Shown piece by piece: positions 2,838-27,590 of a DNA stretch of 42,089 bases. Every line of letters starts with the position of its first letter. Positions within the stretch are counted from its first letter, which is position 1. The DNA is from an uncultured Oscillospiraceae bacterium (GTDB lineage Bacteria; Bacillota; Clostridia; Oscillospirales; Oscillospiraceae). The stretch is from NCBI GenBank assembly GCA_947589545.1, contig CANQBA010000033.1, positions 1 to 42,089 on the forward strand. The letters run 5' to 3'. Below the pieces are notes generated by a model. That model searched no databases. It was given only the letters and a program-made list of their open reading frames with translations, and had not been told where the DNA came from. The position numbers and the translations under genes were made by a program.

Positions 2838-4037
2838 ATGACGATTCTTGAACTGCGCGAGAAACGCGCCAAGGCGTGGGAGGCTGCCAAGGCATTCCTG
2901 GATTCCCACCGCAACGCAAGCGGCGTCCTGTCCGCCGAGGACGATGCCGCCTACACCCGCATGGAGCAGGACATCACCAACCTGGGCCGTGAGATCGCCC
3001 GTCTGGAGCGCCAGGAGGCGCTGGAGGCGGAGCTGAACAAGCCCGTAAACAAGCCTCTGACGGACAAACCCATGAACAGCAAGGGCGAGGCCAAGACAGG
3101 CCGCGCCACCGACGAGTACCGCGCCAACTTCTGGAACATGATGCGTTCCAAGGCGCCCATGCCCCAGGTTGTGAACGCCCTCCAGATCGGCACCGACTCC
3201 GAGGGCGGTTTCCTGGTCCCGGACGAGTATGAGCAGACGCTGGTGGAATCTCTGGAGGAGGAGAACATCTTCCGGCAGCTCGCCAACATCATCCGCACCT
3301 CCAGCGGCGACCGCAAGATCCCCGTGGTCGCCACCAAGGGCACAGCGTCCTGGATCGATGAGGAGGGCGCCTATCCGGAGGGCGACGATTCCTTCGGTCA
3401 GGTGTCCATCGGCGCGTACAAGCTCGGCACGCTTATCAAGGTGTCCGAGGAGCTGCTCAACGACAGCGTTTTCGATTTGGAGAGCTACATCTCCCGCGAG
3501 TTCGCCCGCCGCATCGGTTCCAAGGAGGAGGAAGCCTTCTTCACCGGCAACGGCACCGGCAAGCCCCTTGGCATTCTCGCCGAGACAGGCGGCGCCCAGG
3601 TCGGCGTGACCGCCGCCAAAACGGACGCCATCTCGGTGGACGAGCTTATTGACCTCTTCTACTCTCTCAAGACGCCCTACCGCCGCAACGCCGTGTGGCT
3701 GCTGAACGACGCCACGGTGAAGCTCGTCCGCAAGCTGAAGGACGGGCAGGGCCAGTACCTCTGGCAGCCCTCCCTGGTGTCCGGCACCCCCGACACCCTC
3801 CTGGGCAAGCCCGTGTACACCTCCGCGTATATGCCCACCGCCGCGGCGGAAGCCAAGACCGTGGCATTCGGAGATTTCCGCTACTATTGGGTCGCCGACC
3901 GCCAGGGCCGTTCCTTCAAGCGGCTGAACGAGCTTTACGCCGCCAACGGTCAGGTGGGCTTCCTTGCGTCCCAGCGCGTGGACGGCAAGCTGGTGCTGCC
4001 GGAGGCCGTCAAGGTCCTTCAGCAGACGGCTGCGTAA
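2838..4037 (+). CDS. Major capsid protein, HK97 fold
   Basis: 399 residues. The first ~100 residues are charged and helical with low complexity (ELREKRAKAWEAAKAF onward), like the delta/scaffold domain removed during maturation in this family. The capsid domain then begins around ALQIGTDSEGGFLVPDEYEQ and continues through SWIDEEGAYPEGDDSFGQVS, YKLGTLIKVSEELLNDS and the end KRLNELYAANGQVGFLASQR, all typical of the HK97 capsid family. An AAAGGAGG site precedes ATG 2838. Placement directly after the ClpP-like protease agrees with proteolytic processing; the cleavage site itself was not determined. Confidence 0.96.
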   Translation: MTILELREKRAKAWEAAKAFLDSHRNASGVLSAEDDAAYTRMEQDITNLGREIARLERQEALEAELNKPVNKPLTDKPMNSKGEAKTGRATDEYRANFWNMMRSKAPMPQVVNALQIGTDSEGGFLVPDEYEQTLVESLEEENIFRQLANIIRTSSGDRKIPVVATKGTASWIDEEGAYPEGDDSFGQVSIGAYKLGTLIKVSEELLNDSVFDLESYISREFARRIGSKEEEAFFTGNGTGKPLGILAETGGAQVGVTAAKTDAISVDELIDLFYSLKTPYRRNAVWLLNDATVKLVRKLKDGQGQYLWQPSLVSGTPDTLLGKPVYTSAYMPTAAAEAKTVAFGDFRYYWVADRQGRSFKRLNELYAANGQVGFLASQRVDGKLVLPEAVKVLQQTAA

Positions 4038-5736: not shown

Positions 5737-6168
5737 ATGGCTAAAGCGGATATAAAGCTGCCCGATGAGCTTCTGGAGCGGCTCTCAAAGCTGGGCAGGG
5801 ACTTCGACCCCGTCGCCGAAAAGGTGCTGGAGGCCGGAGGCGAGGTCGTGCTGGAAAAGGTGCGCGGCGCGCTGGCCTCCGTGGTCGGGAAGGACACGAA
5901 ATATCCGTCCCGTTCCTCCGGCGAGCTGGAGGGAGCGCTTGGCCTGTCTGAGGTGAAGGTGGACCGGAGCGGAAACCACAACATCAAAATCGGCTTTGCC
6001 GAACCGCGCTCCGATGGCGGCAGCAACGCCAAGATCGCCAACATCATCGAATACGGCAAGCACGGACAGCCGGCAAAGCCCTTTCTGAAACCCGCCAAGA
6101 GCGCGTCCAGAGCGGCGGCGGTCGCCGCCATGCAGCAGAAGTTTGAGGAGGAGGTTGGAAAGCTGTGA
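5737..6168 (+). CDS. HK97 gp10-like tail component
   Basis: 143 residues from ATG 5737. The family lies between head-closure and tail-completion genes and takes part in joining head and tail. Visible features are the helical start IKLPDELLERLSKLGRDF, a middle YPSRSSGELEGALGLSEV, and the family's usual end IANIIEYGKHGQPAKPFLKP, with the conserved YG and P-A-x-P-F motif. The upstream GAGAGGAG gives a rather long spacing; in-frame codons back to 5713 are possible but lack a better site. Its stop overlaps the next start (GTGA). Confidence 0.85.
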   Translation: MAKADIKLPDELLERLSKLGRDFDPVAEKVLEAGGEVVLEKVRGALASVVGKDTKYPSRSSGELEGALGLSEVKVDRSGNHNIKIGFAEPRSDGGSNAKIANIIEYGKHGQPAKPFLKPAKSASRAAAVAAMQQKFEEEVGKL

Positions 6169-6506
6169 GTCTGCTGACAGAACTGAAGGAAGCGCTGGAA
6201 CCGCTGGGCATTCCCTTTGAAACGGGCGTGTTCTCCGACGAGGCTCCGGCAAGGTATATCGTAATCGTGCCGCTCTCCGACACCTTTGACCTCCACGCGG
6301 ACAACACGCCGGGCGTCGATGTGCAGGAGGCGCGGCTCTCCCTCTACACACAGGGGAACTATATCGCGGCGAAAAATGCGGTCGTGCTGTCGCTTCTTGC
6401 CGCGGACTTCACCGTTACCGCACGGCAGTACATCGGTTTTGAACCCGAAACGGGCTACCACCACTACAACGTGGATGTGGCCAAATACTACGAAATGGAG
6501 GAATGA
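6165..6506 (+). CDS. Phage tail completion-type protein
   Basis: 113 residues, GTG start overlapping the previous stop. Size, position between gp10-like and major tail genes, and the sequence LTELKEALEPLGIPFETGVF, then the strand YIVIVPLSDTFDLHADNTPG, fit the minor tail proteins that terminate the tail tube at the head end. The C-terminal GYHHYNVDVAKYYEM is a common ending in related prophages. No catalytic motif is seen. Confidence 0.7.
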   Translation: MSLLTELKEALEPLGIPFETGVFSDEAPARYIVIVPLSDTFDLHADNTPGVDVQEARLSLYTQGNYIAAKNAVVLSLLAADFTVTARQYIGFEPETGYHHYNVDVAKYYEMEE

Positions 6507-6509
6507 CCT

Positions 6510-7097
6510 ATGGCTACCATTGGCCTGGATAAACTTTACTACGCTCCCATTACCGAGGACGAGAAGGGTGAGGAGGCCTACGGCACCCCGGCGCAGCTGG
6601 CAAAGGCTATCTCCGCCGACCTCTCGGTGGAGCTGGCGGAGGCGACCCTCTATGCCGACGACGGCGCCTCAGAGATCGTCAAGGAGTTTCAGAGCGGGAC
6701 CCTGTCCCTGGGCGTGGATGACATCGGTGGCGAGGCGGCATCCACGCTGACCGGAGCGGTCATCGACGACAACGGAGTCGTCATATCCGCGGGAGAGGAC
6801 GGCGGCCAGCCCGTGGCCGTGGGCTTCCGGGCAAAGAAATCCAACGGGAAGTACCGTTACTTCTGGCTGTACCGGGTGAAGTTTGGCATCCCCGCCACGA
6901 ACCTCGCCACGAAGGGCGACTCCATCTCCTTCTCCACGCCCACCATTGAGGGGACGGTCCTGTGCCGCAACAAGCCGGACACCAAGGGTCGGCACCCCTG
7001 GAAGGCCGAGGCCACCGAGGGGGACAAAAAGGTCGGCGAGGAAACCATCAAGAACTGGTACGAGTCTGTGTACGAGCCGAACTACGCGGCGGAATAA
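6510..7097 (+). CDS. Major tail tube protein, phi13 type
   Basis: 195 residues that resemble the phi13-family major tail protein: start MATIGLDKLYYAPITEDEKG, then AKAISADLSVELAEATLYAD, then the strand-rich middle GTLSLGVDDIGGEAASTLTG and the region YRYFWLYRVKFGIPATNLAT. The protein polymerises into the tail tube. It has a GGAGG site eight bases before ATG 6510. No C-terminal Ig-like extension is present; it ends soon after WYESVYEPNY. It lies directly before the tail-chaperone pair, as in most siphoviruses. Confidence 0.88.
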   Translation: MATIGLDKLYYAPITEDEKGEEAYGTPAQLAKAISADLSVELAEATLYADDGASEIVKEFQSGTLSLGVDDIGGEAASTLTGAVIDDNGVVISAGEDGGQPVAVGFRAKKSNGKYRYFWLYRVKFGIPATNLATKGDSISFSTPTIEGTVLCRNKPDTKGRHPWKAEATEGDKKVGEETIKNWYESVYEPNYAAE

Positions 7098-7111
7098 CGG
7101 AGGGAGCGGAC

Positions 7112-7498
7112 ATGGAAAACGACAGAAGCACATCCGTCACCATCGGCGGGACGGAATATGAAATGCTCCTCACCACCCGTGCCACCCGCGCCATTGCCGG
7201 AAGGTACGGCGGCCTTGAGGACCTGGGCGAGAAGCTGCTCCACTCGGAGAACATGGAGATGGCCCTGAATGAAATTATATGGATCATCACGCTCCTTGTA
7301 AACCAGCCCATCCTCATCCACAACCTGAAGCATCCGGAGGACAAGCGCCGGGAGCTGACGGAGGAGGAGGTGGAGCTTCTCACTTCTCCTAAAGACCTCG
7401 CCGGCTTCAAGGACGCCATTATGGAGGCTATGCTCCGGGGGACGAAGCGGAACGTGGAGAGCGAGGCAGACGGGGCAAAAAACACACAGGCCGGGTAA
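7112..7498 (+). CDS. Tail assembly chaperone, zero-frame product (gpG-like)
   Basis: 128 residues from ATG 7112, preceded by CGGAGGGA. Phage tail chaperones hold the tape measure protein during tail-tube assembly and are commonly made in two forms by a -1 frameshift. This is the short form. It starts MENDRSTSVTIGGTEYEMLL, has the helical middle RYGGLEDLGEKLLHSENMEM and an acidic end. The last codons contain A AAA AAC at 7477-7483, a classic slippery heptamer, just before the UAA at 7496-7498. The next frame carries the extension. Confidence 0.85.
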   Translation: MENDRSTSVTIGGTEYEMLLTTRATRAIAGRYGGLEDLGEKLLHSENMEMALNEIIWIITLLVNQPILIHNLKHPEDKRRELTEEEVELLTSPKDLAGFKDAIMEAMLRGTKRNVESEADGAKNTQAG

Positions 7499-7522
7499 GC
7501 GACGGGGAGTTGTTTACCCGGC
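7477..7522 (+). promoter_or_regulatory. Programmed -1 ribosomal frameshift signal
   Basis: The slippery heptamer A AAA AAC (7477-7483) is correctly phased with the zero frame. Six bases downstream begins a perfect 9-bp stem, GCCGGGTAA (7490-7498) with TTACCCGGC (7514-7522), around a 15-base loop; one G-T and one A-T pair can extend it outward. The zero-frame stop lies inside the stem. Heptamer, spacer and stem-loop are the three canonical parts of a stimulated -1 frameshift. Confidence 0.87.
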
Positions 7523-7686
7523 TTCTCTATTACGGCATTGCCCACCTGCGGATGGGCCAGGAGGAGGTGTGGCTCACGCCCTTCGGCCTGCTTCTGGACC
7601 TTGTGGAATGCCACAAGCAGTACATGGGCTGGGCAAAGCCGAAACGGGAGCTGTTTATTGACGACGTCATCCCGGAGGGTATCTGA
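7483..7686 (+). CDS. Frameshift extension of the tail assembly chaperone (gpT-like part)
   Basis: Open in the -1 frame relative to the upstream chaperone, with no ribosome site or good start of its own. If ribosomes slip at 7477-7483, reading continues HTGRVSDGELFTRLLYYGIA and ends PKRELFIDDVIPEGI with stop TGA at 7684-7686. The joined product spans 7112-7686 and has 191 residues. The segment EEVWLTPFGLLLDLVECHKQ is typical of the second part of such chaperones. This ORF is short and easily missed by gene callers. The tape measure gene begins 16 bases later. Confidence 0.82.
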   Translation, partial: HTGRVSDGELFTRLLYYGIAHLRMGQEEVWLTPFGLLLDLVECHKQYMGWAKPKRELFIDDVIPEGI

Positions 7687-7702: not shown

Positions 7703-10306
7703 TTGGCAGAAGATTTTGGCCTGAAAATCGGTCTGGAGGGCGAAAAGGAGTTCAAGAGGGCCCTCTCGGAGATCAACCAGACGTTTAAGGTGCTTGGCTC
7801 CGAGATGAAGCTCGTATCCTCAGAGTTTGACAAGAACGACAGCTCCGTCCAGGCGCTCACCGCCCGGAACCAGGTGCTGAATAAGGAGATCGAGGCGCAG
7901 AAGCAGAAAATAGAGACGCTTCGCTCCGCCCTGCAGAATGCCGCCGAGTCCTTCGGCGAAAACGACCGCCGCACACAGAACTGGCAGATCCAGCTGAACA
8001 ATGCGGAAGCCGCCCTCAACGGCATGGAGCGTGAACTCTCGGACAACGAAAAGGCCATCGACGCTATGGGCGATGAGATGGACGACGCGGAAGAAAACAC
8101 CGAGGACTTCACCGACGCCGTTAAGGACAGCGGCGAGGAAGCCGATAAAGCGGGAAGCAAATTTGAGAGCTTCAAAAATGTTGTCTCGAAGGTCGCCAAA
8201 GCCGCCGCTGCCGCTGTCGCCGCCATTGGCACGGCAGCCGTCGCAGCCGGCAAAGCGATATGGGACATGGCAAACGATACCGCCGCGGCTGGGGACCAGA
8301 TCGACAAGATGTCGCAGAAGATCGGCATCAGTGCGGAAGCCTACCAGGAATGGTCGTATGTATTTGAACGCTGCGGCTCCGATGTGAACAACCTCCAGGC
8401 GGGTATGAAAACCCTGTCTACGGTCATCACCGACGCCGGGAACGGCTCCGCATCCGCCGCAGAGAAGCTGGCGGCTGTCGGCCTTTCCATCGAGGACCTG
8501 AACGGGCTGTCGCAGGAACAGCAGCTGGAGAAGGTCATCACCGCCCTGCAGGGCATGGGCTCCGGCGCGGAACGGACCGCCGCCGCTACCGACCTTCTCG
8601 GCAAATCCGCCACGGACATGGCGGCTGTCCTCAACATGACCGCCGAAGATACAGCGGCTCTGAGACAGGAAGCCGAGGACTACGGCATGGTCATGAGCAA
8701 CGAGGCGGTCGCCGCAAGCGCGGCATTCGAGGACAGTCTCACCCGGCTGAATAACACCTTCGGCGGTCTGAAGAACCGCATCATGGGTGATATGCTCCCG
8801 GCTCTGACCAGCATCATGGACGGCTTTTCCGACCTTATCGCCGGGAACGATGAAGCCGGGGAGAAAATCAAGAGCGGCGTCACCGACCTCATTACCAGCA
8901 TCAGCGGCATGATACCGCAGGTCGTGGAACTGGTCGGCACGATCGCCGACGCCGTGCTGGAAAGCGCGCCGGTCATCATTCAGTCGCTGGCGGAGGGCAT
9001 CCTCGCGGCTATCCCGACGCTGCTCCCCACCATCACCGAAGTCATCACGCAGCTTATCGGCGCGCTGGTGGAACTGCTCCCTCAGATCGTTGACGCCGGG
9101 ATGCAGATCATTGTGTCTCTGGTGCAGGGCATCGCGGAGAGCATTCCCACTCTCATTCCGCAGATGGTGGCGGTCGTCGCCCAAATGGTGCAGACGCTCA
9201 TCGACAATCTGCCTATGGTGCTTGACGCCGCGCTCCAGCTTATCACCGGGCTTGCCCAGGGACTTCTGGACGCAATCCCCGTGCTGATCGAGGCGCTCCC
9301 TCAGATCATCACGAGCATCGTGGAATTTATCATCGGCGCTATCCCGCAGATCATCGACGCCGGGATACAGCTTCTGACCTCGCTGGTAGCGGCTCTGCCG
9401 GAGATCATCACCGCCGTGGTCGAAGCGATCCCCCAAATCATCGAGGGACTGGTGACCGCTATCCTGGGGAGCATCCCCCAGCTTATCGACGCAGGCGTAA
9501 AGCTGCTGATTTCGCTGATACAGAATCTGCCCACCATCATCACCACGGTGGTCGGCGCCATTCCGCAGATCATTTCGGGACTGGTGACCGCCATCATCGG
9601 CAGTATTCCGCAGATCATCCAAGCTGGCGTGGAACTGCTGATTTCACTCATCAAGAATCTGCCCACCATCATCGTGGAGATCGTCAAGGCGGTCCCGCAG
9701 ATCATTTCCGGGCTGGTGTCCGCTTTCGGGCAGGGCGTGTCCCAGCTTGCCAATGTGGGCAAGAACCTGGTGCAAGGTCTCTGGAACGGCATCCAGTCCC
9801 TTGCATCGTGGCTTTGGAATAAAGTGTCCGGCTGGATCTCCGGCATTTGGGACGGCATCTGTAACTTCTTCGGCATCCACTCGCCCTCGACCGAGATGGC
9901 GTGGGTCGGCAAGATGCTGGTCAAAGGTCTGTCCGGCTCCATTGAGGACAACGGCGGCGACGCGGTCAAGGCCGCCGAAGCCATGACCGGGGATGTGCTT
10001 GGGGCTATGAGGGGGCTTGCGGACGGGGCAGCTCTTCGCGTCCCGGTGAGCTTTGCCGAGGAGATGAACGGTCTTGACCTGAGCGCGGCCTCTGCCCTCT
10101 CCGGCGCACACCGCGCCGGCGCAGAAGCGTCCGGGCAGGCCCAAAGCGGGACATCGGCGCCGGACCCCGGCTCCTTGGCGGACGCCATACGTTCCGCCCT
10201 TGACGGCGCTGCGGTCTATCTGAGCGGACGCCGTGTCGGGAACCTCGTGACAGCGCAGCAATCCAACGCCGTCCGTGCGCGGGGAGCCGCCGTCGTCCCG
10301 GTGTAA
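7703..10306 (+). CDS. Tail tape measure protein
   Basis: 867 residues, by far the longest phage gene here, as expected for the protein that sets tail length. Order: N-terminal domain beginning AEDFGLKIGLEGEKEFKRAL, a coiled coil with DUF-like SEFDKNDSSVQALTARNQVL, an Ala-rich hydrophobic segment near residues 165-190, a core with DQIDKMSQKIGISAEAYQEW, then about residues 400-690 with many tandem hydrophobic repeats of the IPQIIDAGIQLLTSLVAALP kind, and an end with FGIHSPSTEMAWVGKMLVKG. The start is TTG 7703 with a weak upstream GCGGTG; I see no better start. The repeats are likely membrane-active or helical spacer units. Confidence 0.93.
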   Translation: MAEDFGLKIGLEGEKEFKRALSEINQTFKVLGSEMKLVSSEFDKNDSSVQALTARNQVLNKEIEAQKQKIETLRSALQNAAESFGENDRRTQNWQIQLNNAEAALNGMERELSDNEKAIDAMGDEMDDAEENTEDFTDAVKDSGEEADKAGSKFESFKNVVSKVAKAAAAAVAAIGTAAVAAGKAIWDMANDTAAAGDQIDKMSQKIGISAEAYQEWSYVFERCGSDVNNLQAGMKTLSTVITDAGNGSASAAEKLAAVGLSIEDLNGLSQEQQLEKVITALQGMGSGAERTAAATDLLGKSATDMAAVLNMTAEDTAALRQEAEDYGMVMSNEAVAASAAFEDSLTRLNNTFGGLKNRIMGDMLPALTSIMDGFSDLIAGNDEAGEKIKSGVTDLITSISGMIPQVVELVGTIADAVLESAPVIIQSLAEGILAAIPTLLPTITEVITQLIGALVELLPQIVDAGMQIIVSLVQGIAESIPTLIPQMVAVVAQMVQTLIDNLPMVLDAALQLITGLAQGLLDAIPVLIEALPQIITSIVEFIIGAIPQIIDAGIQLLTSLVAALPEIITAVVEAIPQIIEGLVTAILGSIPQLIDAGVKLLISLIQNLPTIITTVVGAIPQIISGLVTAIIGSIPQIIQAGVELLISLIKNLPTIIVEIVKAVPQIISGLVSAFGQGVSQLANVGKNLVQGLWNGIQSLASWLWNKVSGWISGIWDGICNFFGIHSPSTEMAWVGKMLVKGLSGSIEDNGGDAVKAAEAMTGDVLGAMRGLADGAALRVPVSFAEEMNGLDLSAASALSGAHRAGAEASGQAQSGTSAPDPGSLADAIRSALDGAAVYLSGRRVGNLVTAQQSNAVRARGAAVVPV

Positions 10307-14327: not shown

Positions 14328-14745
14328 CAAGCTCGCCGCCATCGGCGACGCCATCCGGCTGAGGACCGGAGGCGTGGACAAGCTCACCCTGGCTGAGATG
14401 CCGGAGGCCATTGCCGGCATTCCCTCCGGCGGCTCCGGCGAGGGCAGCGGCACGGTGCGGTATGTTGTGGGAACGCCCGTGGCTTTCCGAATCTCCGACT
14501 GGGACGCGGACGCCGCGGGCCACACCTATACGCTGCCCCTCACCGGGTACAAGGTCGGGGCAAACGGCGCGCAGCTCGGCCTCATGCCCGCTTCCTCCTC
14601 CGTCAATACGCAGGCGGTGGTGGAGGCGGCGCTGACCATCGTGAGCGGAAACAGGGCCGGGGCCACCTCCCTCACTCTCTCTGCCGTCAATATCCCGAAA
14701 GGCGACCTGACCGTGGCAGTCTTCGGATTGGAGGCACGGGAATGA
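14314..14745 (+). CDS. Tail fibre-associated protein
   Basis: 143 residues from ATG 14314, overlapping the previous gene by 14 bases. The N-terminal motif LTDKLAAIGDAIRLRTGGVD then KLTLAEMPEAIAGIPSGGSG is a very common opening module of Clostridia prophage tail proteins. A Gly/Ser linker leads into a beta-rich ~95-residue domain ending VNIPKGDLTVAVFGLEARE. Enzyme motifs are absent. The stop overlaps the ATG of the prenyltransferase gene (ATGA). Structural role likely, exact role unknown. Confidence 0.68.
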   Translation: MALTDKLAAIGDAIRLRTGGVDKLTLAEMPEAIAGIPSGGSGEGSGTVRYVVGTPVAFRISDWDADAAGHTYTLPLTGYKVGANGAQLGLMPASSSVNTQAVVEAALTIVSGNRAGATSLTLSAVNIPKGDLTVAVFGLEARE

Positions 14746-15398
14746 ACGAGCTTAACCACATCGCCGTCATCGCCGATGGCAACGGGCGCTGGGCGGAGCG
14801 CCGGGGTCTGGACCGCGCCCGAGGACACGAAGAGGGACTTAACCGCGTGGAGGACATGATGCACTGGTGCGTGGAGCTGAGCATCCCGATCCTGTCGGTC
14901 TATTGCTTCAGCTGGGAAAATTGGAGCCGACCGCAGGAGGAGGTGGACTCGCTGTTTGAACTGGCGAACCACTACTTCGAGAGATACCGGGAATTTGCCG
15001 AGAACAACATCCGCGTACTCATTTCCGGGACCACAAAGCGCGTAAAGCCTGAGAGCTTAGAGAAAATGGAGCGCATCCAGCGGGAGACCGCCCACTGCGA
15101 CGGGCTGACGCTCAACTTGTGCGTCAACTACTCCGGGCGTATGGAAATCGTTGACGCGATTGCCAAGGGCGCCCGGACGGAGGATGAGATCACCGCCGCG
15201 CTCTACCAACGGCTCCCGGAGCCGGACCTCATCATCCGCACCGGGGGCTACCGGCGGTTGAGCAATTTTCTTTTGTGGCAGTCGGCCTACGCTGAATTAT
15301 ACTTCACGGACACACTCTTCCCGGACCTGAGTTTGGGAGAATTTCGTCACGCCGTGCGGCGTTTTGAGCGGACGCGGCGGAAGTTTGGAGGCGCATGA
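14742..15398 (+). CDS. uppS: Phage-encoded cis-prenyltransferase (undecaprenyl diphosphate synthase-like)
   Basis: 218 residues, against about 250 for bacterial UppS. The family adds isoprene units to farnesyl diphosphate to make the C55 carrier lipid for peptidoglycan. Signature regions are present: HIAVIADGNGRWAERRGL with Asp12, GH at 28-29, the FSWENWSRP loop, LNLCVNYSGRMEI, and IIRTGGYRRLSNFLLWQSAY then AELYFTDTLFPD with the two diphosphate-binding arginines and the Mg-binding Glu. The ending RRKFGGA matches the family's usual C-terminus, so the gene looks complete; loops are shorter. It overlaps both neighbours by four bases (ATGA), so it belongs to the late operon. UppS activity is inferred; a different chain length is possible. 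Confidence 0.9.
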   Translation: MNELNHIAVIADGNGRWAERRGLDRARGHEEGLNRVEDMMHWCVELSIPILSVYCFSWENWSRPQEEVDSLFELANHYFERYREFAENNIRVLISGTTKRVKPESLEKMERIQRETAHCDGLTLNLCVNYSGRMEIVDAIAKGARTEDEITAALYQRLPEPDLIIRTGGYRRLSNFLLWQSAYAELYFTDTLFPDLSLGEFRHAVRRFERTRRKFGGA

Positions 15399-16342: not shown

Positions 16343-16759
16343 ATGAAACAGGTATGGAACGGTATTCAGGCGGGGGCGGCGGCGCTGGGAGGGTTTCTCG
16401 GCTGGTTCCTGGGCGGAGCGGACGGCTTCCTCTACGCGCTGATCGCCTTCGCGGTGATCGACTATGTGACGGGCGTTCTGTGCGCCATCGCGGACAAGAC
16501 GCTGGACAGCTCCGTGGGCTTCTGGGGCATCTGCCGGAAGGTCCTCATCTTCGTCCTGGTGGGCATCGGCAACATTCTGGACGTCCATGTGCTGGGCAAG
16601 GCCGGGGTGATGCGGACGGCGGTCATCTTCTTCTACCTCTCCAACGAGGGCGTGAGCCTTCTGGAAAACTCCGCCCGTCTGGGGCTGCCCATCCCGGAAA
16701 AGCTCCGGGACGTGCTGGCGCAGCTCCACGGTCGTGACGGAAAGGACGGTGAGGAGTGA
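16343..16759 (+). CDS. Phage holin, toxin-secretion/phage-lysis type
   Basis: 138 residues with AGGAGG well placed before ATG 16343. It contains hydrophobic segments near residues 10-25, 28-47 (FLYALIAFAVIDYVTGVLCA), 65-82 (CRKVLIFVLVGIGNILDVHV) and 88-100, followed by the family-typical FYLSNEGVSLLENSARLGLP and PEKLRDVLAQL. The segment YVTGVL after an Asp is diagnostic for this holin family. It would form membrane holes that release or activate the amidase encoded next; the two genes overlap at TGATG. Confidence 0.93.
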   Translation: MKQVWNGIQAGAAALGGFLGWFLGGADGFLYALIAFAVIDYVTGVLCAIADKTLDSSVGFWGICRKVLIFVLVGIGNILDVHVLGKAGVMRTAVIFFYLSNEGVSLLENSARLGLPIPEKLRDVLAQLHGRDGKDGEE

Positions 16760-17478
16760 TGGACTATACGAACAGCCCTCTGGTGGCCTATACCAGACTG
16801 AGCCCCAACCACTCCGGGCAGCGGACCCACGCCATTGACCGCATTTCGCCCCACTGCGTCGTGGGCCAGTGTACCGTGGAGACCCTGGGCGAGATATTCG
16901 CCCCGACCTCCAAAAAGGCGTCCTCCAACTACGGCATCGGCAAGGACGGCAGGGTCGGAATGTACGTCGAGGAGGCGAACCGCTCCTGGTGTACGTCCTC
17001 CAACGCCAACGACCAGCGGGCCGTCACCATCGAGTGTGCCAGCGACACCTTCCACCCCTACGCCATGACGGACGCCGTCTACGCCTCCCTCATCGAGCTT
17101 TGCGCGGATATATGCCGCCGCAACGGGAAGACGAAGCTCCTCTGGCTGGGCGACAAGGACACGACCCTCGCCTACGAGCCGAAGGAGGGCGAGATGGTCC
17201 TAACCGTCCACCGCTGGTTTGCCAACAAGTCCTGCCCCGGCGACTGGCTCTACGCCCGGCTCCCGGACCTGGCGGTGCGGGTGACGGCGGCCCTCGCCCC
17301 GGTTGTCCGTTTGGACAACACCCCCTCCGCCTGGGCGAAGGAGGCCGTGGATTGGGCGGTGGGCGCCGGCATCATGGCTGGCGGGAGCGGCGGGGACCTC
17401 ATGCTGCACAGCCCCGTCACCCGTGAGCAGCTTTGCGTATTTCTCCACCGTTACCGCGAGCTGTATGGGAAAATGTGA
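16759..17478 (+). CDS. Phage lysin: N-acetylmuramoyl-L-alanine amidase with SLH-like C-terminus
   Basis: 239 residues from ATG 16759; GTG 16756 is also possible. The N-terminal ~175 residues are an amidase-2 type domain that cleaves the amide between muramic acid and the stem peptide. Likely zinc ligands are the His of RISPHCVVGQ, the His of LTVHRWFANK and the Cys of SCPGDW. The Glu of AVTIECASD lies in a conserved strand. After about residue 190, SAWAKEAVDWAVGAGIMAGG and PVTREQLCVFLHRYREL match one S-layer-homology repeat, a cell-wall-binding module. It is coupled to the holin and ends the late operon. Confidence 0.92.
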   Translation: MDYTNSPLVAYTRLSPNHSGQRTHAIDRISPHCVVGQCTVETLGEIFAPTSKKASSNYGIGKDGRVGMYVEEANRSWCTSSNANDQRAVTIECASDTFHPYAMTDAVYASLIELCADICRRNGKTKLLWLGDKDTTLAYEPKEGEMVLTVHRWFANKSCPGDWLYARLPDLAVRVTAALAPVVRLDNTPSAWAKEAVDWAVGAGIMAGGSGGDLMLHSPVTREQLCVFLHRYRELYGKM

Positions 17479-17599: not shown

Positions 17600-18622
17600 A
17601 TGGAAGCCAAAGTAATAACCCCGGAGGTCATTTCGGACTTTCGGAACGCGCTGGACGCGCTGGGCCGTAGCGTCCACACCGTCACCCGGTATCTCTTTGA
17701 CGTCACGTCCTTTGCCCGGTTTCTGGACGGGCGCGAGGCCACGGCGGAGGCGACACGGGAATTTCGGGACAGTTTAATGCTCCGAGGCTACGCGCCCGGC
17801 AGCGTCAACACCAAGCTCGCGTCGCTCTTCTCCTTCTTCCACAGCCTGGGCTGGGAGGGCTGCGAGACGCCCCGCGTCCTCATCCAGAAGGACGCCTATA
17901 TCTCCGAGGACGCGGAGCTTACGATGGAGGAGTACCGCAAGCTCCTGGCCGCCGCCCGCAGTCCGCGTGACCGGCTGATCCTGGAGACCCTGGGCGGCAC
18001 AGGCATCCGCGTGTCGGAGCTGCGCTATTTCACTTTAGAGGACGTGCGGAAACGCGACATCCGCGTCCAGTGTAAGCGCAAGATCCGCCGCATCATGATT
18101 CCGGAGGCGCTGGGGCGCCTGCTGGAGGACTACGCCGCGGAGCAGGGCATCACCTCCGGCGTCATTTTCCGCCGAAAGAACGGCGGAGCGCTTGACCGGG
18201 TCGCTATCTGGCGGCTCATGAAGGCGGCGGGAAGACGCGCAGGGCTCCTCGCCTCCAAGGTCCACCCCCACAACCTGCGGAAGCTCTTCGCCCGGACGTT
18301 TCTTGAAAACGGCGGGACGCTGGAGCAGCTGTGCGACGTGCTGGGGCACAGCAACCTGGACACGACACGAATCTATATAAAGACCAGCGGCGCGGAGCAT
18401 CGCCGGATCGTGGAAGGGCTGGGCCTCGTCCCATGTCAAGAGGAGGAACCGGAGACAGAACCGGCAGCGGAGCCGGAGGAAGCCGAAACGGAGGACGGGG
18501 ATTCGGAGGACGCGGAAAAGCCGGGATTCTCCGTCAAGACTGGCACAAAACCGCACGGCGCGAAAAAGCCCCTCCCACGTCGTAAAAACAAACGCAGGAA
18601 GGGCAAAAGGGCAAAAAAATAA
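17600..18622 (+). CDS. int: Tyrosine integrase
   Basis: 340 residues. An N-terminal core-binding SAM-like domain (about 1-95, with TVTRYLFDVTSFARFLDGRE) precedes the catalytic domain. Catalytic residues are visible: Arg in GTGIRVSELRYF, Lys in VQCKRKIRRIMIP, HxxR in HPHNLRKLFA, His in LGHSNLDTTRIYI and the following Tyr. It resembles XerD/phage integrases. Unusual is a ~60-residue tail after VEGLGLVPCQ that is first strongly acidic and then very basic (PRRKNKRRKGKRAKK); this could be an extra DNA-contact arm. AAGGAGG precedes ATG 17600. It lies right after the lysis genes, so an attachment site is expected nearby, possibly in the structured region 18.6-19.8 kb. Confidence 0.93.
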   Translation: MEAKVITPEVISDFRNALDALGRSVHTVTRYLFDVTSFARFLDGREATAEATREFRDSLMLRGYAPGSVNTKLASLFSFFHSLGWEGCETPRVLIQKDAYISEDAELTMEEYRKLLAAARSPRDRLILETLGGTGIRVSELRYFTLEDVRKRDIRVQCKRKIRRIMIPEALGRLLEDYAAEQGITSGVIFRRKNGGALDRVAIWRLMKAAGRRAGLLASKVHPHNLRKLFARTFLENGGTLEQLCDVLGHSNLDTTRIYIKTSGAEHRRIVEGLGLVPCQEEEPETEPAAEPEEAETEDGDSEDAEKPGFSVKTGTKPHGAKKPLPRRKNKRRKGKRAKK

Positions 18623-23690: not shown

Positions 23691-24095
23691 ATGACCGCCG
23701 AACAAATCAACCGCGTAAACGAGCTTTCGCGGCAAGGGCTGGGTTACAAGAGAATAGCGGCGCTGACAGGCATCCCCGCCAACACCGTCAAGACGCATTG
23801 CCGGAGGCACCCGGTCGGAGGCGGCAAGACGGAGAGGGCGGACGCATACTGCCGCCAGTGTGGAAAGCCCCTCACGCGGCAGCCGAAGCAAAAGCCCCGG
23901 AGGTTCTGCTCCGATGCCTGCCGGATGAAGTGGTGGAACGCCCACCCGGAGCAAATCAGGCGGAGGGCGTGGTACACCTTCGTCTGCCCACAGTGCGGAG
24001 AGGAGTTTCAAAGCTACGGGAACGCCCATCGGAAGTACTGTTCCCGGAAGTGCGCCGCCGACGCCAGACGGATGGGAGGCGGGAAGGGTGACTGA
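23691..24095 (+). CDS. HTH and zinc-ribbon DNA-binding protein of the recombinase operon
   Basis: 134 residues from ATG 23691, which follows AAAGGAG; the frame is open further upstream but lacks a site. Residues ~1-40 form a helix-turn-helix (INRVNELSRQGLGYKRIAAL then TGIPANTVKTHCRRH). Two Cys4-type ribbons follow: CRQCGKPL with FCSDACRMKWW, and CPQCGEEF with YCSRKCAADARR. Such proteins are often named sigma-like HTH proteins, but no polymerase-binding region is seen. It is first in a chain of five overlapping genes and overlaps the next by 8 bases. A DNA-site accessory or regulatory role is inferred. Confidence 0.78.
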   Translation: MTAEQINRVNELSRQGLGYKRIAALTGIPANTVKTHCRRHPVGGGKTERADAYCRQCGKPLTRQPKQKPRRFCSDACRMKWWNAHPEQIRRRAWYTFVCPQCGEEFQSYGNAHRKYCSRKCAADARRMGGGKGD

Positions 24096-24327
24096 CTTTG
24101 ACCGCCGCATGGCGGATTACAGGACCGCCATGTCCCTTGCCGCGGATATGCTCGAAAGGGGTATCATCAACGAAAAGGACTACGCCCAAATTGATAGAAT
24201 TATAGCCAAAAAGTACGGCCTTTCTTTGGACAGTATATGCTGCCGAAGCCCGTTGATAAATACCGGGACCAGAGGTAATATGCTCACTGACAAAAAGGGA
24301 GGTGTTGCCAATGGAACAAACCGTTAG
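24088..24327 (+). CDS. SHOCT-domain small protein
   Basis: 79 residues, GTG start at 24088 inside the end of the previous gene. The segment LERGIINEKDYAQIDRIIAK then KYGLS matches the short C-terminal (SHOCT) helix-hairpin domain that is common in small proteins next to recombinases; its role is unknown, often thought to be oligomerisation or nucleic-acid contact. It overlaps the recombinase gene by 17 bases. The overlap on both sides supports that it is real and translated in one operon. Confidence 0.72.
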   Translation: MTDFDRRMADYRTAMSLAADMLERGIINEKDYAQIDRIIAKKYGLSLDSICCRSPLINTGTRGNMLTDKKGGVANGTNR

Positions 24328-25627
24328 AAAAGTGGAGTTCAACGCGCTCCGGCCCAGCGGCGTAAAGCGCGTAGCCGCATACGCCAGGGTCTCCGCCGCC
24401 AAAGACGCGGCGCAGCACTCGCTCGCGGCGCAGGTGAGCTACTACAGCGACCTCATCCGGAAGCACCCCGGCTGGCTTTACTGCGGCGTCTATGCCGACA
24501 ACGGGATAACCGGCACCAAGGCCGACCGCGAGGGCTTCCAGCGCCTCATGGCGGCGTGCAGGAGCGGAGAGGTGGACATGGTCATCACAAAGTCCATCTC
24601 GCGCCTTGCCAGGAACACGGTGACGCTGCTGGAGACCATACGGGAGCTGAAGGGCCTGGGCGTGGACGTCTATTTCGAGGAGCAGAACATCCACACCCAG
24701 AGCGGCGACGGAGAGCTTATGCTGACCATCCTTGCCTCCTACGCGCAGGAGGAAAGCCGCTCCGCCAGCGAGAATCAAAAATGGCGGGTAAGGGAGAATT
24801 TCCGGCAGGGAAAACCGCGTGCAGGCAGTATGCTCGGCTACAGGCTCCGGGACGGGAAGTATGAGGTCATCCCGGAGGAAGCCGCGACGGTCCGCCGTAT
24901 CTTCAACGATTACCTCTCCGGCATGGGCGGCCTTGCCATTTGCAAGGCGCTGAACGAGGAGGGGATCACAACGAGGGACGGCGGCGTCTGGCACCTCGGA
25001 CCGCTGATGAACGTGTTGGGCAATTACTGCTACACCGGAAACCTCATCCTGCAGAAGACCTACCGCGAAAACCACATCACGAAGCGGAAGTGTGTTAACC
25101 GCGGTGAGCTGCCGATGTACCATGTGGAAGGGTTTCACGAAGCGATCATTCCGCCGGAGACGTTCCGAGCCGTCCAAGAGGAGCGCGCAAGGAGAGCCGA
25201 AAAATACTCCGCGCAGCACTCGGCTCGGCAGTATCCGTTCACGGGGAAAATAACCTGCGGATGCTGCGGAGCAAGCTACAACCGGAAGACCACCCTGGGC
25301 AAGGTGACGTGGGTCTGCCGCACGTTCAACACCCAGGGCAAGTCAAAATGCGGCGGCTCCAAAGCGATACCGGAGGCCACGCTCATGTCCGCAGCCGCGG
25401 AGGTCCTGGGCTTGGATGTGTTCGACCCTACGGCCTTTGAAGCGGCTGTCAGTACGATTACCGCCGCCGAGGGCAACAGGCTCATTTTTCATTTTAGAGA
25501 CGGCTCGACCCAAACAGTGATTTGGAGTGACCGCTCAAGGTCGGAATCCTGGACGCCGGAGATGCGGGCCGAGGCGGGACGGAAGACAAAAGAAAGGTGG
25601 GAAAAAACACATGGCGAGCGTTCATAA
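24311..25627 (+). CDS. Large serine recombinase A
   Basis: 438 residues from ATG 24311, preceded by GGGAGGTG. The N-terminal resolvase domain has AAYARVSAAKD with catalytic Ser28, YADNGITGTKADREGFQRLM and the helix KSISRLARNTVTLLETIREL. Next come the recombinase domain (GKPRAGSMLGYRLRDGKYEV, then SILR-like LMNVLGNYCYTGNLILQK) and a zinc ribbon with CGCCGASYNRKTT and WVCRTF. The C-terminus is short, without a long coiled coil, and ends with a basic SWTPEMRAEAGRKTKERWEK. It would cut and rejoin DNA at att-like sites through a covalent serine link. The middle gene overlaps its end by 17 bases. Confidence 0.93.
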   Translation: MEQTVRKVEFNALRPSGVKRVAAYARVSAAKDAAQHSLAAQVSYYSDLIRKHPGWLYCGVYADNGITGTKADREGFQRLMAACRSGEVDMVITKSISRLARNTVTLLETIRELKGLGVDVYFEEQNIHTQSGDGELMLTILASYAQEESRSASENQKWRVRENFRQGKPRAGSMLGYRLRDGKYEVIPEEAATVRRIFNDYLSGMGGLAICKALNEEGITTRDGGVWHLGPLMNVLGNYCYTGNLILQKTYRENHITKRKCVNRGELPMYHVEGFHEAIIPPETFRAVQEERARRAEKYSAQHSARQYPFTGKITCGCCGASYNRKTTLGKVTWVCRTFNTQGKSKCGGSKAIPEATLMSAAAEVLGLDVFDPTAFEAAVSTITAAEGNRLIFHFRDGSTQTVIWSDRSRSESWTPEMRAEAGRKTKERWEKTHGERS

Positions 25628-25991
25628 AGCCGCGCTGTACTGCAGGATTGCCGAATGTGATCCGTTGATTGTGGAGCTGCAAACGTCGCTCCTGAGAGAC
25701 TATGCCGCCCAAGAGGGGCTGGACATTTTCGGGGTGTACACAGACGAATGCCCCGTGAGCGTCCCTCGTCCGGCGCTTCGGAAGTTGCTGGAGGACGCTC
25801 GGGACCGCCGCTTCGATGTGGTCGTCGCCGTGTCGCCCAGCCGCCTGGAGCGCCGTACCGAACAGCTCCTGGAGATCGTCAGTCAGCTTACGGAGGCGGG
25901 AGTACAGATTCGGTTTGCCGACGGGACCGAGGATTTGTCCACTTGGCTTCGGATTTGCGAGGGGGTCTATGAATGCCTAACATCACTGTAA
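25611..25991 (+). CDS. Resolvase-domain-only protein lacking the catalytic serine
   Basis: 126 residues from ATG 25611. It aligns by eye to the N-terminal domain of serine recombinases: KAALYCRIAECD, DYAAQEGLDIFGVYTDECPV, RPALRKLLEDARDRRFDVVV, then SPSRLERRTEQLLEIVSQLT. The residue after CRI that should be the nucleophilic Ser is Ala14, and the usual Gly of DEG is Cys. The active-site arginines (Arg12 and those of SRLERR) are kept. There is no recombinase or DNA-binding tail. It overlaps both large recombinase genes (17 and 19 bases). It probably cannot cut DNA; a partner, scaffold or direction-control role is inferred. Confidence 0.82.
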   Translation: MASVHKAALYCRIAECDPLIVELQTSLLRDYAAQEGLDIFGVYTDECPVSVPRPALRKLLEDARDRRFDVVVAVSPSRLERRTEQLLEIVSQLTEAGVQIRFADGTEDLSTWLRICEGVYECLTSL

Positions 25992-27544
25992 TCCCCGCAA
26001 CAAGGGCGCTCCACACCAAGGCGCCTGTCGGGACCGCCGCACGGCGCCGCGTGGCGGGCTACGCCAGAGTGTCCACGGACAGCGACGAGCAGTTCACCAG
26101 CTACGAGGCGCAGGTGGACTACTACACGCAGTTCATCAAATCCCGCAGCGATTGGGAGCTTGTGGACATCTATACGGACGAGGGGATCTCCGGCCTCAGC
26201 ACCAAGCACCGCCCAGGCTTCAACCGCATGGTGGAGGATGCCCTCGCCGGACGTATCGACCTCATCGTGACCAAGAGCGTCAGCCGCTTTGCCAGGAACA
26301 CCGTGGACAGCCTGTCCACCATAAGAAAGCTGAAGGAGGCCGGATGTGAATGCTTCTTTGAGAAAGAGAACATCTATACCTTCGACAGCAAGGGCGAGCT
26401 GCTCCTGACCATTATGTCCTCCCTGGCCCAGGAGGAGAGCCGCTCCATCTCCGAAAACGTCACATGGGGACAAAGAAAGCGGTTCGCTGACGGCAAAGTC
26501 TCCATGCCGTACAAGCATTTCCTCGGCTACGAAAAAGGACCGGACGGCAAACCGAAGATAGTCCCGGAGGAGGCGGAGCAGGTACGGCGAATCTACAATA
26601 TGTTTATTTGGGGAGGCACCCCCTACTCCATTGCGAAGCAGCTGACAGAGGAGGGCGTCCCCACCCCTGCCGGGAAGACAACGTGGAGCGCATCCACCAT
26701 AAAAAGCATACTTCGCAATGAGCGCTATTCCGGAAATTGCATTTTGCAAAAGCAGTTCACGGTGGACTACCTGACCGGGAAAATGAAGGTCAATGAGGGG
26801 GAGGTCCCTCAATACTATGTGGAGGGCAGCCACGAAGCGATCATTTCGCCAGAGGAATTCGACAGGGTCCAGCGCGAGTTCAATCGCAGGGAGCAGATGG
26901 GGCTCAGAAGCGGCGGTGGCAGCATCTTCAGTTCGCGCATTATTTGCGGCGACTGCGGCGGGAGTTACGGTCCGAAGGTATGGTCTTCTACAAGCAAATA
27001 CCGCCGCGTGGTGTGGCAGTGCAACAACAAGTTTCATAACAGGCATAGATGCACCACACCCCACTTCGATGAGCAGGAAATCCAGGAGCGTTTTGTGGCG
27101 GCGATCAATGCCGTTCTCGGCAGCAAAGAAGCCCTGATGGACGACTGCCGGACAATCTTGAAGGCGCTGACAGACTGCACGGAGCTGGAAGCCCAAGCCA
27201 ATGAGCTTACATCTGAGATCGACATCGTATCAGAATTGGTCAGGCGCTGCGTAGACGAGAATGCGACAAGCGCAGGGAGTCAGGAGGAATATGCAGCCAA
27301 GTACAAAGCGCTTTCCCTGCGCTTCGAGCGAGCTTCCTCCCAGCTTGCTGAAGTGAAGAAAGAGATAGCCGACCGAAAAGCCCGTGCCGCTGATATTGGT
27401 GATTTTATGTTCGAGGTCCAGGAGCTGGATGCCATCACACAGTTTGATAAGAAGCTCTGGCTTTCTACAGTTGACCGCGTCACAGCCTACAATGACGGAC
27501 GACTGGTTTTTCAATTCCGAAACGGCATGGAGCAGGAAGCATAA
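25973..27544 (+). CDS. Large serine recombinase B
   Basis: 523 residues, ATG 25973 inside the end of the preceding gene. The catalytic domain has VAGYARVSTDSDEQ with Ser34, YTDEGISGLSTKHRPGFNRM and KSVSRFARNTVDSLSTIRKL. The recombinase domain follows (MPYKHFLGYEKGPDGKPKIV; TIKSILRNERYSGNCILQKQ), then a zinc ribbon with CGDCGGSYGPK and WQCNNKFHNRHRC, and a ~100-residue coiled coil (LEAQANELTSEIDIVSELVR; FERASSQLAEVKKEIADRKA). All parts of an active large serine integrase are present. It is the last gene before the operon terminator. Confidence 0.95.
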   Translation: MPNITVIPATRALHTKAPVGTAARRRVAGYARVSTDSDEQFTSYEAQVDYYTQFIKSRSDWELVDIYTDEGISGLSTKHRPGFNRMVEDALAGRIDLIVTKSVSRFARNTVDSLSTIRKLKEAGCECFFEKENIYTFDSKGELLLTIMSSLAQEESRSISENVTWGQRKRFADGKVSMPYKHFLGYEKGPDGKPKIVPEEAEQVRRIYNMFIWGGTPYSIAKQLTEEGVPTPAGKTTWSASTIKSILRNERYSGNCILQKQFTVDYLTGKMKVNEGEVPQYYVEGSHEAIISPEEFDRVQREFNRREQMGLRSGGGSIFSSRIICGDCGGSYGPKVWSSTSKYRRVVWQCNNKFHNRHRCTTPHFDEQEIQERFVAAINAVLGSKEALMDDCRTILKALTDCTELEAQANELTSEIDIVSELVRRCVDENATSAGSQEEYAAKYKALSLRFERASSQLAEVKKEIADRKARAADIGDFMFEVQELDAITQFDKKLWLSTVDRVTAYNDGRLVFQFRNGMEQEA

Positions 27545-27549
27545 TTTAC

Positions 27550-27590
27550 AGGACCGCAGGTTAATTTGGCCTGCGGTCCTTCTCTCTTTA
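27550..27590 (+). terminator. Rho-independent terminator of the recombinase operon
   Basis: AGGACCGCAGG (27550-27560) pairs perfectly with CCTGCGGTCCT (27570-27580), 9-base loop, followed by a T-rich TCTCTCTTT. Confidence 0.88.

Follow-up and report, generated by a model that had tools for sequence, protein, structure and literature searches.

What does a serine recombinase catalytic core that has lost its nucleophile do between two intact large serine recombinases? The question is raised by a five-gene operon in a 42,089-nucleotide stretch of DNA (the window; contig CANQBA010000033.1) from an uncultured Oscillospiraceae bacterium. The five genes (g1 to g5) occupy positions 23691-27544 with neighbours overlapping by 8, 17, 17 and 19 bases; the gene coordinates bear out both these overlaps and the tight packing noted in a preliminary description of the locus. 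The features of the operon are as follows.

23691..24095, + strand: g1, 134 aa, HTH/zinc-ribbon protein, first gene of the module; phage family phrog_2308 (5e-46), function unknown
24088..24327, + strand: g2, 79 aa, GTG start; SHOCT_2 (Pfam PF20612, 1.6e-12)
24311..25627, + strand: g3, 438 aa large serine recombinase with Ser28 intact and a short C-terminus; Pfam Resolvase 3.6e-33
25593..25601, + strand: Shine-Dalgarno-like AAAGGTGGG before g4, within g3 (by eye)
25611..25991, + strand: g4, 126 aa stand-alone serine-recombinase catalytic core; Ala14 replaces the nucleophile Ser
25973..27544, + strand: g5, 523 aa large serine recombinase with Ser34 intact; Pfam Resolvase 2.6e-34 and others
27551..27579, + strand: inverted repeat GGACCGCAGG / CCTGCGGTCC, then a T-rich run (read from the sequence)

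Purine-rich stretches resembling Shine-Dalgarno sequences were seen by eye ahead of the gene starts, and the inverted repeat at 27551-27579 with its T-rich run is likely the operon terminator. Both g3 and g5 combine Resolvase, Recombinase and zinc-ribbon domains (Pfam) with a Ser nucleophile and the arginines, the features by which large serine recombinases are recognized, and both match the Resolvase profile at positions 1-144. They had been called complete and active on the strength of Ser28 and Ser34, and this stands if 'active' is taken to mean intact catalytic residues. The two upstream genes had been described as encoding an HTH/zinc-ribbon and a SHOCT protein; SHOCT_2 was recovered in g2 at 1.6e-12, but the HTH and zinc matches of g1 fall under the Pfam cut-offs. 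With two full-length recombinases and one dead core, the window does not hold a serine-integrase triplet. In the predicted model of g5 (pLDDT 78.6), long helices follow the zinc ribbon at residues 403-432 and 437-483; the model drops below pLDDT 50 at residues 153-176, which makes a comparison of last-helix length with g4 unusable. The DNA of g5 (window 25973-27544) is 97-99% identical to that of locus L061 (1447-3021) over the first 200 codons, and identity falls to 44-75% from about codon 206, where the Recombinase domain starts. The DNA-binding half of this serine recombinase has apparently been exchanged in nature.

The middle protein had been described as a 126-residue resolvase-domain protein with Ala14 at the nucleophile position and its arginines retained, and sequence, Pfam and alignment all agree. 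Pfam finds in g4 a Resolvase domain only (2e-16), with no Recombinase (DNA-binding) domain, and because the match covers positions 2-106 of the 145 in the profile, most of the last helix is missing. R12, R53, R78 and R81 align with the conserved arginines of the family, and from what is known of that family we take them to be the active-site arginines. Ala14 lies in the motif YCRIAECD, which has no second Ser, so that no adjacent residue obviously replaces the nucleophile. Lacking both the Ser nucleophile and the Recombinase domain, g4 is not itself a large serine recombinase. The predicted model (pLDDT 87.6) ends in a 17-residue C-terminal helix. Serine-recombinase catalytic domains top its Foldseek list, with TP901-1 integrase at a TM of about 0.8; ISC1926 TnpA and TP901-1 integrase are among its PDB matches, and phmmer aligned g4 with 3bvp at 6.1e-05. 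OPG061 proteins, presumably the same protein as F16, were also among the fold matches. The model thus predicts that g4 adopts the resolvase catalytic-core fold.

We place the module in a prophage because genes for head, tail, tape measure and endolysin proteins share its contig, which starts within the prophage. The following genes were assigned by PHROGs/Pfam.

2838-4037, + strand: major head protein
6510-7097, + strand: major tail protein
7703-10306, + strand: tape measure
16756-17478, + strand: endolysin
17600-18622, + strand: tyrosine integrase

The tyrosine integrase gene directly follows the endolysin gene and lies 5 kb upstream of the serine-recombinase module in the same prophage region. 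An undecaprenyl-diphosphate-synthase-like gene (PF01255, 1.2e-70) is found at 14742-15398 amid phage structural genes. Elsewhere in the host genome, in which a Resolvase domain occurs at 27 places, a second module lies on contig C5 (L038); its g1, g2, g3 and g5 are 53%, 55%, 72% and 64% identical to those of the window, and no counterpart of g4 is present in it.

A scan with g3 gave 133 relatives in named genomes and 229 in viral contigs, and the best 80 of each were analyzed. The best 80 of the 133 genome relatives come mostly from Oscillospiraceae and other Clostridia, and some have relatives of phage genes nearby (amidase at 27 loci, tape measure at 15, capsid at 12). Seventy-five of these genome loci could be scored, four being excluded for want of an intact g3 3' end and one for want of a downstream g5; the 80 viral loci were counted with near-copies left in. 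Where at least 800 bp were present upstream of g3 (71 genome and 74 viral loci), relatives of g1 were found at 63 and 71 loci, relatives of g2 at 54 and 70, and both together accompanied the pair at 50 and 68, respectively. Judged by these sequences, the core module is g1-g2-g3-g5, built on a CcrA/CcrB-like pair and widespread, mostly in Clostridia. No dead domain lay between the pair in 73/75 scorable genome loci or in any of the 80 viral loci of these best-80 sets, and among the 155 scorable relatives in both sets only L061 and L070 have a dead middle gene. Given its absence from 153 of these 155, from the paralogous module and from six modules that are 88-92% identical to L070, g4 is not a core part. 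The preliminary description had made g4 a built-in member of a five-gene machine, a claim that the pairs without a dead domain and the near-identical modules lacking g4 do not support.

The same five-gene order was sought in other genomes, as had been suggested, and Ala stands at the nucleophile position in all three members (window, L061 and L070). The g4 proteins of the window and L070 are 42% identical over 114 codons; the frame is intact, and both retain Ala and all four arginines. L070, from Clostridiaceae bacterium strain 9, shares 92% DNA identity with L064 and 88-90% with five other modules; among these seven similar modules it alone has the g4 gene, as a clean 361-bp insert (L064, L072 and L088, at 89-92% DNA identity to L070, have no g4 gene). 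The L070 module is not intact, since its g5 is broken off after about 50 codons. At this break, at about 6117-6128, a minus-strand gene for a 501 aa serine recombinase (6117-7622) ends, a pattern that insertion of an element into the g5 recombinase gene might leave. At a further locus, L253 (G345:C4), a dead protein with Gly at the nucleophile position occupies the place of g4 and is 39% identical to it over 74 residues; the domain tree puts this protein with that of L150, on a long branch inside the g3/g5-like group. The four pair modules that have a dead gene in the middle (window, L061, L070 and L253) are scattered across the 88-row g3 tree among modules that lack one, which requires three changes. 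No close relatives of g4 were found by tblastn in plasmids and phages or by a single-sequence scan of viral contigs; a viral scan with alignment A1 returned three distant dead proteins. It had been argued that g4 would be a mere decayed copy if its homologues mostly carried Ser or if it were absent from otherwise identical cassettes. The absence is indeed seen in otherwise like modules, but the homologues carry Ala. Because it is often absent and its homologues nevertheless keep Ala, g4 looks like an accessory that a module may have or lack, rather than a core subunit or a plain decayed copy.

Searches with g4 profiles also recovered free-standing dead cores, roughly 120-145 aa long, that often form the final gene behind a row of three full-length serine recombinases (L243, L244, L251, L252, L160, L161 and L162). 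One profile, A2, proved too general: it matched 271 of 391 genomes, most of the matches listed lay in long recombinase frames, and only loci retrieved for inspection entered later counts. We then scored triplets found with the third recombinase of L251 as query. In viral contigs this query gave 30 loci, 22 of them scorable; a dead fourth gene was present in 11 (L161, L262, L263, L264, L268, L273, L274, L275, L277, L281 and L288) and absent from 11 (L265, L266, L267, L269, L270, L271, L276, L278, L279, L280 and L282). Although this query does not pick out dead genes as such, the sample is not neutral, because the module of the query recombinase itself has the dead gene. L266 and L270 were scored as absent on just 394 and 258 bp of downstream sequence, and a weak match in L266 at a loose threshold falls on the beginning of a different recombinase that carries Ser. 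The remainder consisted of seven loci that were too short and the unusual L290, where a stretch of 109 aa stands alone and carries Ser.

The same query gave 18 loci in genomes, comprising the query itself, three that were cut short and 14 that were scorable. The dead gene was found in three of the 14, at the standard threshold in L325 and L334 and by the loose scan in L336, where it is diverged and 99 aa long (E 6.8e-8); it was missing from the other 11, the query being left out. In L329 (1344-1499) and L332 (1005-1562) the third recombinase is followed by short frames with YCRVD or YCRIG that look like the beginning of a dead core (E values of 0.07 and 0.17) and may be remnants of a dead fourth gene. 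The divergence in L336 and these possible remnants indicate that the dead gene can be lost or decay. On these counts the dead gene is common in one triplet lineage and rare in others.

Other arrangements were also encountered. At L022 (6132-10852), L023 (708-5428) and L249 (2611-7005) the module has a split arrangement: a dead core comes first, and between the two full recombinases that follow stands a protein of 259-288 aa with the Recombinase domain alone, in which no catalytic domain was found. L176 (5496-6044) and L180 (6708-7199) encode a stand-alone recombinase-like domain of 163-182 aa that has lost the nucleophile and the two late arginines and lies directly upstream of a 644-683 aa recombinase. 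Dead cores at L245, L246, L247 and L250 (G235, G284, G084 and G108) have no large serine recombinase within the roughly 3 kb examined, and dead cores of this type may serve elsewhere too.

The residue at the nucleophile position was tallied over distinct ORFs. Full-length recombinases, defined by a Recombinase domain, had Ser in 483 of 484 readable cases (one Leu in a weak alignment; 18 unreadable). Stand-alone domains had Ala in 25, Asp in 13, Gly in 2, Phe in 2 and Ser in 22, with 6 unreadable, the share of non-Ser residues being biased upward because part of the set came from dead-profile searches. The four arginines are retained in 40, 37, 38 and 37 of the 42 non-Ser rows. Of the stand-alone domains that neighbour a large recombinase and do not touch a contig end, 28 were non-Ser and 9 Ser; among the other non-Ser rows, 12 had no large recombinase up to 250 bp away in the sequence examined and 2 touched a contig end. 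In this census, loss of the nucleophile appears confined to stand-alone domains.

The dead proteins of triplets gave dN/dS values of 0.10-0.23 in five pairs with dS < 1, pairs that are not independent because four lie among L262, L263, L264 and L268; the L263/L274 pair (dN/dS 0.10) was excluded for its dS of 3.25. Values this low indicate that the triplet proteins are under constraint. Window g4 and its L061 counterpart differ by 12 substitutions (5 synonymous, 7 nonsynonymous), and the resulting dN/dS of 0.46, or 0.33 without the overlaps, settles nothing with so few changes. The case for long-term constraint on window g4 would come from the comparison with L070.

Domain trees of 112-113 columns are weak guides to where the dead cores came from. 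With the nucleophile column removed, 28 dead rows including g4 grouped together (support 84) and the six L160-type rows stood apart; a tree with all 34 dead rows forced together was not rejected (p-AU 0.28). Nor was one in which the g4 trio was forced to join the g3/g5 family, which fitted slightly better (p-AU 0.59), and the trees are compatible with either answer as to whether g4 is a plain copy of one of its two neighbours, g3 or g5. The dead domains of L022/L023 (Asp) and of L056/L150 (Gly) fall inside the g3/g5-like group, the former with the full-length recombinase of L022 itself (branches of 99 and 97, both starred). They look like separate events, and their position in this group makes it probable that dead stand-alone cores arose more than once.

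How might g4 act? We suppose that g3 and g5, with g1 and g2, form an integration/excision module of the prophage and would work like the paired large serine recombinases CcrA and CcrB. Its nucleophile being Ala, g4 should not attack DNA. Its likeliest mode would be protein-protein, with g4 docking on g3, g5 or both at their catalytic domains and altering how, when or in which direction these recombinases synapse. A long helix is the normal means of pairing between recombinase subunits. In the simplest form g4 would be a brake that fills an interface without adding a cutting subunit: a core without a long helix of its own could take the surface that receives the partner's helix and so limit synapsis. 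Alternatively, it could bias direction or poison the related recombinases of competitors. We put at about even the chance that g4 is an optional, non-catalytic accessory that regulates large serine recombinases, the sign of the regulation being left undecided. This reading draws on the fold, the missing nucleophile, the kept arginines, the optional presence, the recurrence of dead cores near recombinases and the low dN/dS in triplets. Counted against it are the absence from 153/155 pair modules and from 11/14 genome triplets, the failure of the trees to establish kinship between window g4 and the dead proteins of triplets, and the 12/42 non-Ser rows that have no large recombinase within 250 bp.

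The same patchiness would be expected if g4 were a truncated, inactivated domain hitch-hiking harmlessly in the operon and gained or lost by chance, a reading that we consider unlikely. It is favoured by the absence of g4 from 153/155 relatives and from near-identical modules, by dead domains that arise elsewhere as local copies (Asp, L022/L023) and by the apparent leftovers of the dead gene in triplets L329 and L332, and the dN/dS of 0.46 on 12 substitutions gives no case against neutrality. It does not, however, lead one to expect an intact frame that at 42% identity between window and L070 still keeps Ala and four arginines; g4's own ribosome-binding-like site and the low dN/dS of the triplet dead proteins also speak against it. 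The preliminary description had instead proposed an obligate subunit of a hetero-oligomer, supplying asymmetry or direction. The place of g4 between both recombinase genes, overlapping each, and its kept arginines are in keeping with this, but a similar module persists without g4 in 153/155 loci and in L038, and we now think the proposal quite improbable, although g4 may set direction in some few lineages alone. Finally, g4 could serve exclusion: a dominant-negative core of this kind would poison recombinases that belong to rival elements sharing the cell. The host genome, with its 27 Resolvase-domain places and a second module 72% (g3) and 64% (g5) identical, offers such targets, and patchy presence suits a factor in competition between elements; yet g4 would need to spare its cognate g3 and g5 or act only when they are off, and we rate this very improbable.

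If g4 is a regulatory accessory, the idea might extend further. We offer tentatively, and with some doubt, that dead stand-alone cores are dedicated 'pseudo-recombinase' subunits of two- and three-recombinase machines in Clostridia, gained and lost as modules, in which the active-site pocket without its nucleophile, or a subunit interface, would control synapsis, direction or competition between elements. To our knowledge, division of labour and choice of direction in multi-subunit large serine recombinases, whether pairs or triplets, is an open question, and a natural dead subunit that is present or absent in near-identical modules allows both architectures to be compared directly. Were g4 a brake or direction switch, it would also offer a natural protein with which to control the large serine recombinases that serve as DNA tools.

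Multi-recombinase modules (ICE triplets, CcrA/CcrB, DsiA/DsiB and gin) and a dead poxvirus serine recombinase are already known. In a literature search that covered few of the subscription journals, we found no account of large serine recombinases being served by a dead stand-alone core. The resemblance to CcrA/CcrB drawn in the preliminary description is upheld by matches of both g3 and g5 to CcrB, CcrC and CcrA models, though their scores of 127 and 140 bits are far below the NCBIfam CcrB cut-off of 900. Like CcrA/CcrB of the staphylococcal cassette chromosomes, they are large serine recombinases that differ in length and are encoded side by side; in contrast to these, the window-type pair is found in prophages, accompanied by an HTH/zinc-ribbon gene, a SHOCT gene and an optional dead core. 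We know of no dead third gene in ccr complexes and of no direction factor with a recombinase fold. In having this fold itself, g4 differs from directionality factors such as GirX of the gin element, an element described as having three recombinases, where GirX blocks integration by a serine recombinase and permits excision (PMC5595907). In the ssrA islands of Dehalococcoides, the DsiA/DsiB pair is described as a 200 aa serine-recombinase-domain protein adjoining a CcrB-like integrase (PMC3146451). The smaller Dsi protein resembles g4 in having no detectable DNA-binding motif, whereas g4 is shorter (126 aa) and without a nucleophile, and the accessible text of that report does not describe DsiA as catalytically dead. 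Poxvirus F16 is presented as an inactivated serine recombinase whose protein has been kept and whose role is obscure (PMC4304020); it differs from g4 in coming from animal viruses and in that the accessible part of the source names no partner recombinase. The serine-integrase triplets of streptococcal ICEs resemble the modules described here in that adjacent serine integrase genes form one module (PMC4701971). According to the accessible part of that account, each of the 42 serine integrases contains, besides its Recombinase domain, a Resolvase domain in which the serine is conserved, and no dead fourth gene is named, whereas the triplets of our analysis can carry one.
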